Shown one piece after another: positions 56,123-56,798 of a stretch of DNA of 64,000 bases. This DNA comes from Stackebrandtia endophytica (GTDB lineage: Bacteria > Actinomycetota > Actinomycetes > Mycobacteriales > Micromonosporaceae). The number at the start of each line of letters is the position of its first letter. The stretch's first letter is position 1. Below the pieces are notes generated by a model. That model made no database searches and was not told the DNA's origin. It was given only the letters and a program-made list of their open reading frames with translations. Made by a program: the position numbers and the translations under genes. Location: assembly GCF_006716355.1 (NCBI RefSeq), contig NZ_VFOW01000001.1, positions 2,232,001 through 2,296,000 on the forward strand, read 5' to 3'.

Positions 56123-56239
56123 CGCCGGCGATCCGCCTGACGCCCAATCTCAGATGAGCGGCCCCACAGCAGTGTGTTAATGTGATCGCCGGTAACAGGC
56201 AAGGGGACCATCCGTGACTGTTATCGGAAGTACCCGCAA

Positions 56240-56358
56240 GGGGCTGTGGCGCAGTTGGTAGCGCACACGGCGAAGCCCGCGAAGCCGTGCAAAAACACAG
56301 CGTTCGCAACGAAGAGGCCAGGGACAACCTGACCTCGGACATAACTCAATACCCGCAA
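56240..56358 (+). repeat. tRNA-Ala-derived tandem unit 1 (119 bp)
   Basis: The unit starts with the tRNA-Ala 5' portion (acceptor strand GGGGCTG and D-arm through GCGC, 25 bases). A 35-base insert follows containing the stem CACGGC/GCCGTG, then CGTTCGCAACGAAGAGGCC of the same tRNA, then 37 bases replacing the T-arm and 3' acceptor strand. It ends TACCCGCAA. Without the acceptor 3' strand it cannot be a normal tRNA. Confidence 0.85.
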
Positions 56359-56477
56359 GGGGCTGTGGCGCAGTTGGTAGCGCACACGGCGAAGCCCGCG
56401 AAGCCGTGCAAAAACACAGCGTTCGCAACGAAGAGGCCAGGGACAACCTGACCTCGGACATAACTCAATACCCGCAA
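56359..56477 (+). repeat. tRNA-Ala-derived tandem unit 2 (119 bp)
   Basis: This unit is identical to unit 1 over its 119 bases by eye, head to tail with no spacer. Identity of two copies implies recent duplication or ongoing homogenisation. Confidence 0.85.
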
Positions 56478-56597
56478 GGGGCTGTGGCGCAGTTGGTAGC
56501 GCACACGGCGGAGCCTGCGAAGCCGTGCAAAAACACAGCGTTCGCAACGAAGAGGCCAGAGGGCAACCTCACCTCGAACATAACTCAATACCCGCAA
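56478..56597 (+). repeat. tRNA-Ala-derived tandem unit 3 (120 bp)
   Basis: This is a diverged copy with a handful of substitutions and one extra base (AGAGGGCAACC in place of AGGGACAACC). It runs directly into the intact tRNA-Ala at 56598. Changes fall in the insert and tail, while the tRNA-derived parts stay identical. Confidence 0.85.
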
Positions 56598-56670
56598 GGG
56601 GCTGTGGCGCAGTTGGTAGCGCGCTTCGTTCGCAACGAAGAGGCCAGGGGTTCGAATCCCCTCAGCTCCA
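56598..56670 (+). tRNA. tRNA-Ala (anticodon CGC)
   Basis: This 73-base cloverleaf is complete. The acceptor GGGGCTG pairs with CAGCTCC and includes the G3-U70 alanine identity pair. The D stem is GCGC/GCGC with loop AGTTGGTA, the anticodon stem CTTCG/CGAAG with loop TTCGCAA (anticodon CGC), and the T stem AGGGG/CCCCT with loop TTCGAAT. The discriminator is A70, and CCA is not encoded. It reads GCG codons. It is the only intact member of a four-copy tandem series. Confidence 0.97.
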
Positions 56671-56720
56671 CTCCGGGTCACCATGTGACCCAGGCCGTTG
56701 TTGGTTGAGACAACGTGACC

Positions 56721-56754
56721 GGCGCTCACTTCGGTGAGCGCCGTTCTTGTTTTC
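56721..56754 (+). terminator. Intrinsic terminator of the tRNA-Ala
   Basis: GGCGCTCAC (56721-56729) and GTGAGCGCC (56734-56742) form a perfect 9-bp stem on a TTCG tetraloop, followed by GTTCTTGTTTTC. This is a textbook rho-independent terminator and unusually U-rich for this genome. Confidence 0.93.
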
Positions 56755-56767
56755 ACCGCCCCGTGCC

Positions 56768-56798
56768 CAGTTGGTAGCGCCGACGGGTTTCCCGTCGG
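56768..56798 (+). repeat. Isolated tRNA D-arm fragment with hairpin
   Basis: CAGTTGGTAGCGC (56768-56780) repeats 13 bases of the tRNA-Ala D-arm beyond the terminator. The perfect stem CCGACGGG/CCCGTCGG (56780-56787, 56791-56798) follows directly. It looks like a further remnant of the duplicated tRNA series. Confidence 0.6.

Follow-up and report, generated by a model that had tools for sequence, protein, structure and literature searches.

The 64-kb window, that is, the whole stretch of 64,000 nucleotides analysed here, has a G+C content of 66% and belongs to a genome of Stackebrandtia endophytica assembled as a single contig of 5,663,490 bp (G000). It carries on its forward strand, where the other window features described below also lie, an intact tRNA-Ala(CGC) gene at 56598..56671, called by ARAGORN and matched by Rfam RF00005 with 72.9 bits at 56598-56670. 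Directly 5′ of this gene lie three head-to-tail units of 119, 119 and 120 bp, namely unit 1 at 56231..56349, which includes a 9-nt lead-in and has its tRNA-identical 5′ part from 56240, unit 2 at 56350..56468 and unit 3 at 56469..56588. This arrangement, first proposed from the bare sequence, is recovered both by mapping of the tRNA pieces and by Tandem Repeats Finder, which reports a period of 119, 3.3 copies, 97% matches and a score of 740 at 56231-56622, the runner-up among its 13 rows reaching a score of 71 only. A chance origin of the array is excluded. Each unit begins with an exact copy of tRNA-Ala(CGC) nt 1-25 (at 56240, 56359 and 56478) and takes up the tRNA again at nt 30-52 in units 1 and 2 (56301 and 56420) and at nt 30-50 in unit 3 (56539), whereas the unit tails have neither a T-arm nor a 3′ acceptor strand, exactly the pattern of retention and loss that the first-pass annotation had described. 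The two tRNA pieces are separated by a block that substitutes tRNA nt 26-29, the flanking pieces stopping at nt 25 and restarting at nt 30; it occupies 56265..56300 in unit 1, with counterparts at 56384-56419 and 56503-56538 in units 2 and 3, and its size is 36 nt rather than the 35 bases originally given.

Units 1 and 2 are identical in sequence, and unit 3 differs from unit 1 by five substitutions and one indel, every change falling outside the tRNA-identical stretches. With about half of the unit being tRNA-derived or lead-in, there is a chance of ∼2% that six changes all miss that half, and its sparing is weak evidence when taken alone. The claim that tRNA parts stay identical while the rest drifts is true for the Ala units, on one comparison with six changes, but does not extend to the tRNA-Pro(CGG) units of a second species (G003), which are a counter-example because the distal unit is changed inside its D-arm part. 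Within the array region, the only above-threshold RF00005 match is the intact tRNA, no unit reaching the gathering score, and neither the Ala unit nor the Pro-type unit described below matches an Rfam family at the thresholds used. A split tRNA or intron was considered and rejected, since the gene behind the array is complete and leaves nothing to be spliced. A coding reading was likewise rejected: the 100-aa open reading frame at 56406-56708, which spans the tRNA together with some of the array, translates tRNA sequence, and a period of 119 bp is not divisible by 3.

The CACGGC/GCCGTG stem previously suggested for the insert can indeed form (−10.1 kcal/mol), but the insert folded by itself does not outperform shuffled sequence (z −1.0 and −0.1), and in the predicted fold of the whole unit its pairing partners are instead the tRNA-derived pieces (z −3.3 and −3.4). 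The T-arm is replaced by a hairpin, at 56314..56336 in unit 1 (GAGG.CAGG / CCTG.CCTC), with a z of −4.4 in unit 1 and −3.3 in unit 3; in the latter the inner pairing CAGG/CCTG is exchanged for GAGG/CCTC, and the stem, including GAGG/CCTC, is retained. An A/T-rich linker motif, TAACTCAATA ahead of unit 2 (56342..56351; pattern HAAYTNMATA), is matched again ahead of unit 3 (56461..56470) and ahead of the intact tRNA (56581..56590), and these three matches, all within the Ala array, are the only ones on both strands of the window.

Upstream of the array, a promoter-like block TGTGTTAATGTGATCGCCGGT at 56173..56193, with a −10-like TAATGT at 56178-56183, is conserved before the orthologous tRNA-Ala genes of other Stackebrandtia genomes. 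The same or a similar sequence stands 13 nt ahead of the tRNA in S. albiflava (G001), with variants ∼10 nt away in G004 and ∼70 nt away in G003, and no units lie between block and tRNA at these three loci. A scan for the sigma-70 consensus does not call the block at 56173..56193. As the units of the window lie between the block and the tRNA, they should be transcribed together with it, which agrees with the initial suggestion of tRNA-like RNAs co-transcribed with the tRNA. Downstream, a terminator-like stem-loop with a T-rich tail is present at 56720..56753, the single hit of a terminator scan for which shuffled sequences average 1.1, and behind it lies a further 13-nt D-arm piece of tRNA-Ala(CGC), nt 13-25, at 56768..56780.

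Related units at other tRNA genes

We surveyed the tRNAs of five Stackebrandtia genomes (46 in G000, 45 in G001, 40 in G003, 46 in G004 and 32 in G002; n=209), with 32 tRNAs of G014, a member of another genus of the same family, and 26 tRNA-Ala loci of other genera as controls. The 32 tRNAs of G002 and the 32 of G014 come from 30 loci per genome, out of 42 and 47 Rfam matches respectively, and the 26 tRNA-Ala loci are no random sample, having been chosen as those that match the tRNA of the window best. At least the first 10 nt of the tRNA's own sequence recur as an exact copy, no more than 400 nt upstream, at 7 of 209 genus tRNAs, compared with 11 of 9,926 mismatched pairs. The same test gives 0/32 in G014 and 2/26 at the loci of other genera, where the two copies lie beyond the leader, at distances of 345 and 361 nt upstream. 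The seven genus leaders comprise, in G000, those of Ala(CGC) with its three units, Leu(GAG) with two 69-bp units, and Pro(TGG) with one decayed unit; in S. albiflava, those of Pro(CGG) with two units (125 and 126 nt) and, in addition, a short palindrome that copies the start of the tRNA, and Pro(TGG) with one unit; and those of Pro(CGG) in G003, with two 109-bp units, and in G002, with one unit. No such copy is found at the 46 tRNAs of G004, where the Leu(GAG) leader contains the linker motif together with hairpin-like sequence. A looser score (an own-tRNA match of at least 12, upstream and direct) gives 8/209 in the genus versus 1/58 in the controls, which is no clear difference, and the recurrence claim therefore rests on the 5′-prefix test and on the features shared by the units. 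The sole control match under this score, before a tRNA-Arg of G014 (L381), overlaps what we read as a terminator-like hairpin. Given similar foldable copies before a few other tRNAs of this and related species, a recurring RNA feature is likelier than an isolated accident. The recurrence also bears on whether the array might be an assembly artefact, as the identity of units 1 and 2 could suggest; we consider this to have a negligible probability because unit 3 has diverged and analogous arrays are present in the independently assembled G001, G002 and G003, the genome of the window itself being one contig.

A mirror image of the leader units is seen behind the Pro(TGG) gene of G000 (L085), where three tandem units of ∼44 bp each carry the tRNA 3′ end and an inverted copy of it.

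Linker, hairpin and partner strands

Most units follow a common plan: they have the local tRNA's 5′ strand, for which a new pairing partner is frequently present, they contain hairpins, and they are set off from the next module, and from the intact tRNA, by an A/T-rich linker. The opening 5′ strand tracks the local tRNA across species, being CGGGCTG in G003 and CGGGATG in G001 and G002. The linker HAAYTNMATA stands ahead of the intact tRNA at six of the seven loci, and also between modules, with the G002 linker AGTTAAATAT being a variant that is no strict match. Within the last 40 nt, the motif occurs in 8/241 leaders (two of them unit-free) against a mean of 0.10 and a maximum of 1 for shuffled sequences, a test that is partly circular because the pattern was drawn from these same loci. 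In predicted folds the linkers are mostly unpaired. At an unusual tRNA-Leu(CAA) of G001 (L210), the linker motif lies directly upstream of the gene with no unit.

The Pro units share a hairpin with GA steps flanking a short loop (GCGGC-GA-GCTTGC-GA-GCCGC and variants), and the Ala insert is similar to it. Across six Pro-type sequences, 34 of 36 cells of this hairpin are paired and three of the six pairs have changed on both sides; two Ala units and unit b of G001 were left out of this count because alignment A1 was misaligned in the 3′ strand. Neither the covariation score nor the number of cells changed on both sides is reached by any of 500 shuffles, two of the five measures being weaker (reached by 80/500 and 23/500), and a slide of +3 columns leaves a score of 0.356 versus 0.467. 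The plan held in common across species at the tRNA-Pro genes suggests at least partial constraint at the RNA level. A likeness, suggestive only, also links the Ala insert to that of a different tRNA-leader unit, Pro(CGG) of G001: in four comparisons the two align better than the majority of dinucleotide-preserving shuffles (fractions 0.007 to 0.05).

Complementarity to the own tRNA 5′ end exceeds that of shuffles, which here keep base composition only, in 5 of the 10 unit sequences: Leu (0/1000), both Pro(CGG) units of G001 (0.002 and 0.004), G002 (0.004) and Pro(TGG) of G001 (0.03). The excess is not significant for Ala (0.09, 0.31), G003 (0.85, 0.38) and Pro(TGG) of G000 (0.22). An inverted copy of the tRNA above the level of shuffles, which for this test and for the fold z keep dinucleotides, is likewise observed in 5/10 unit sequences, comprising an 18/18-nt inverted D-arm copy at Pro(TGG) of G001, less pronounced ones in G002 and in the two G003 units, and, at Leu, an inverted copy that derives from the acceptor region; the excess is not significant in the remaining five, the Ala units included. 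Parts of the non-tRNA sequence look like partner strands for the tRNA pieces. The whole-unit fold z ranges from −1.6 to −3.5 in 9/10 units, the decayed-looking unit at Pro(TGG) of G000 giving +0.3; as references, 152 unit-free leaders have a mean of −0.82, with 10% at −2.5 or below, and 60 real tRNAs a mean of −2.40.

These features weigh on both sides of a neutral explanation, by which replication slippage and template switching at hairpin-rich tRNA genes would have left partial tandem copies that are a role-less transcribed spacer, bound to decay. The identity of Ala units 1 and 2 implies a recent amplification, and inverted copies of tRNA pieces are the expected leftovers of template switching; moreover, 3′-end units have also arisen behind Pro(TGG) of G000, and the absence of units at orthologous Ala loci, along with the decay of one unit (at Pro(TGG) of G000), argues that the units are dispensable. 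Against it, related units occupy the Pro(CGG) leaders of G001, G002 and G003 and the Pro(TGG) leaders of G000 and G001, the shared hairpin covaries, a similar linker is found at unrelated tRNAs, and the units track the local acceptor sequence between species. On balance we regard neutral debris as a serious possibility, albeit one that is somewhat doubtful.

Distribution and mobile-element readings

A covariance model built from four Pro-unit sequences (R1), run in genome searches with stricter filters that lose weak matches, identifies G001, G002 and G003 at E < 1e-12 among 354 family genomes. Two other genomes match at E 0.003 and 0.005, with no tRNA in either 3-kb locus, and the Pro-type unit has no credible match outside the genus in this set. 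R1 is marginal on the Pro(CGG) units of G001 (E 0.05 and 0.1), misses the decayed Pro(TGG) unit of G000 genome-wide and does not find the Ala units, and so says nothing on the spread of the latter two. A DNA search with the Ala unit gives matches at E up to 0.01 in 22 of the 354 genomes, G000, G001 and G003 included; seven weak loci were inspected (L054-L060), none of which has a tRNA, and none was credited. The linker plus D-arm pattern yields eight matches in six of the 354 genomes, five of them in G000, G001 and G003 (one of these five, L242, being without a tRNA), and by itself proves nothing because the reversed-pattern control gave 11. Its matches in other genera (L238-L240) fall in ordinary tRNA-Gly/Cys/Val clusters (two) and before an interrupted tRNA-like gene (one), with no unit seen. 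The tRNA-like gene in G156 (L238, from 1515) seems to have a long insert in its anticodon region, possibly an intron, and lies beside two tRNA-Glu genes.

The Ala insert had earlier been considered as a small element that invaded a tRNA and might be repeated throughout the genome. No credible copy of it is found elsewhere in its own genome, in the genus or in the 354 family genomes, seven weak loci of which were inspected, and an exact 22-mer is absent from genome_contigs and a 20-mer from viral_contigs (records near the own genome having perhaps been left out); an identity as a mobile element found elsewhere is rejected on these grounds. Searches of phages and plasmids gave 435 and 130 records, respectively; in the best 20 rows of each, every match covers tRNA-type parts of the query and none covers 80%. 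No relative of the insert is present among these best 20 rows or in the viral contigs, and the tested unit patterns have no match in viral contigs either. These results speak to attachment-site scars of integrative elements, a source to which prokaryotic tRNA fragments are mostly assigned in the portion of PMC9897764 used here. Such a scar commonly involves the 3′ part, whereas the units keep the 5′ part, in several tandem interrupted copies with each next module starting directly after the last, and the best phage and plasmid rows are tRNA-type matches only; the first-pass annotation had doubted an ordinary scar on account of the 5′ half, and we consider it extremely unlikely. The units resemble the integrative-element fragments of that source in being partial tRNA copies in prokaryote genomes, but differ from what the same portion describes (as a rule a single fragment, lying at an island's far end) in that the copies are tandem, in the leader, with no island between (PMC9897764).

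A scan of genome_contigs for the hairpin gives at least 134 matches on at least 118 stretches (L246-L363). Among the matches listed, seven lie at most 500 nt from a tRNA, two of these in Stackebrandtia units, and the remainder are mostly REP-type-looking repeats or single sites. The hairpin core GYGGYGAGCTTGCGARCCRC is frequent in proteobacterial repeats beginning GTAGG, with several per contig in some cases. REP elements are dispersed hairpin repeats with GTAG adjoining the hairpin, and the GTAGG-starting repeats look like such elements. The shared hairpin might accordingly be a transposable palindrome, of a REP/RAYT-like or other single-strand-hairpin kind, that landed beside tRNA genes, and GTAG or GTGG does occur within tRNA 5′ parts. 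This is nevertheless very improbable in our estimate, given that the hairpin of the genus is confined to tRNA-leader units among the matches listed (R1 and one pattern), that each unit contains the local tRNA's own sequence, and that viral contigs lack the tested unit patterns.

Proposed origin and role

From the anatomy of the array, its position between the promoter-like block and the tRNA, its recurrence in the genus, the predicted folds and the covariation of one Pro hairpin, the reading we favour, with about even confidence, is that the array represents structured leader modules, derived from the tRNA and co-transcribed with it, which constraint at the RNA level maintains at least in part. 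Each module starts with sequence copied from the 5′ end of the tRNA next to it (the acceptor 5′ strand and all or part of the D-arm), with the lost 3′ half replaced by new sequence that may offer the 5′ end another pairing partner and at least one further hairpin, and with similar, A/T-rich and probably mostly unpaired linkers setting apart the modules and the intact tRNA. The modules would be transcribed with the tRNA from a single upstream promoter and separated by RNase E/J-like cuts in the linkers; RNase P might also cut at each copy of the +1, and maturation of the intact tRNA would proceed normally. They may have originated by partial tandem duplication of tRNA plus linker, followed at some loci by inverted re-copying of tRNA pieces, and copy number could change by unequal crossing-over. 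As to function, we would propose competition for, or modulation of, the processing of the same tRNA. In a bolder and distinctly unlikely version, the modules are lineage-specific, cis-encoded tRNA mimics, in which the copied 5′ end of the following tRNA is re-paired with an evolved partner and tracks the local tRNA in each species, tuning that tRNA's own maturation (RNase P might be occupied, for example, or alternative pairings formed), the number of copies serving as a dial.

If leader modules of this kind are functional, the cell would control the supply of a tRNA through structured copies of that tRNA's 5′ end carried in the precursor; if they are neutral, they provide a clear natural record of hairpin-rich tRNA genes spawning tandem and inverted partial copies. 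In either case, what appeared to be a single odd repeat becomes a recurring tRNA-leader architecture in one bacterial genus, with a hairpin and a linker for which the Rfam searches gave no family, and none of the open-access titles listed describes arrays of this kind in bacteria. The distal repeats of E. coli tyrT (rtT RNA) are tandem repeats downstream of a tRNA that each contain the tRNA 3′ end. They are similar in placing tandem repeats with a piece of a tRNA end in a bacterial tRNA transcript, the closest parallel being the downstream units at Pro(TGG) of G000; the Stackebrandtia leader units, in contrast, are upstream, contain 5′ ends, form folded modules and occur at several tRNA genes, with downstream 3′-end units at Pro(TGG) of G000 only. 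The transcribed tRNA spacer 3′ETS-leuZ functions as an sRNA sponge with known RNA targets. It shares with our loci the notion that a spacer of a tRNA precursor may be a functional small RNA, whereas, of the two, only the Stackebrandtia loci have tRNA-derived repeats. The pseudogene arrays of plastid trnF(GAA) in Solanaceae and Brassicaceae, to the extent that they are described in the sections of PMC3786074 drawn on here, have between one and several partial copies in tandem, immediately 5′ of the complete gene; the anticodon domain is the best-kept part, the acceptor strands are mostly lost, and a single tRNA gene is concerned. Judged by those sections, both systems have tandem partial copies 5′ of an intact gene, a common bordering motif (ATTG-type in the plastid) and a lineage-restricted distribution, but the Stackebrandtia units keep the acceptor 5′ strand (exactly in 3/3 Ala units), occur at several tRNA genes of a bacterial chromosome, and have new partner strands and a shared hairpin (PMC3786074).

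Partial or repeated tRNA copies of other kinds are also seen in the genus. About 60 bp behind the intact Leu(GAG) gene of G000 (L126) lies a second tRNA-Leu copy whose 3′ part is complete and whose D-loop region contains an insert, AAAGCCGCAAAGCGGC, that bears a hairpin, and ∼130-150 bp downstream of tRNA-Pro(CGG) in both G003 (L111) and G001 (L169) there is a 3′-half copy with a hairpin insert in the T-loop. A fragment of a different kind, a copy of tRNA nt 23-59, is located ∼100 bp upstream of tRNA-Ser(TGA) in G000 (L133), and tRNA-Met(CAT) occurs as same-sequence pairs 448 bp apart in G000 (L121) and 680 bp apart in G003 (L147/L116).
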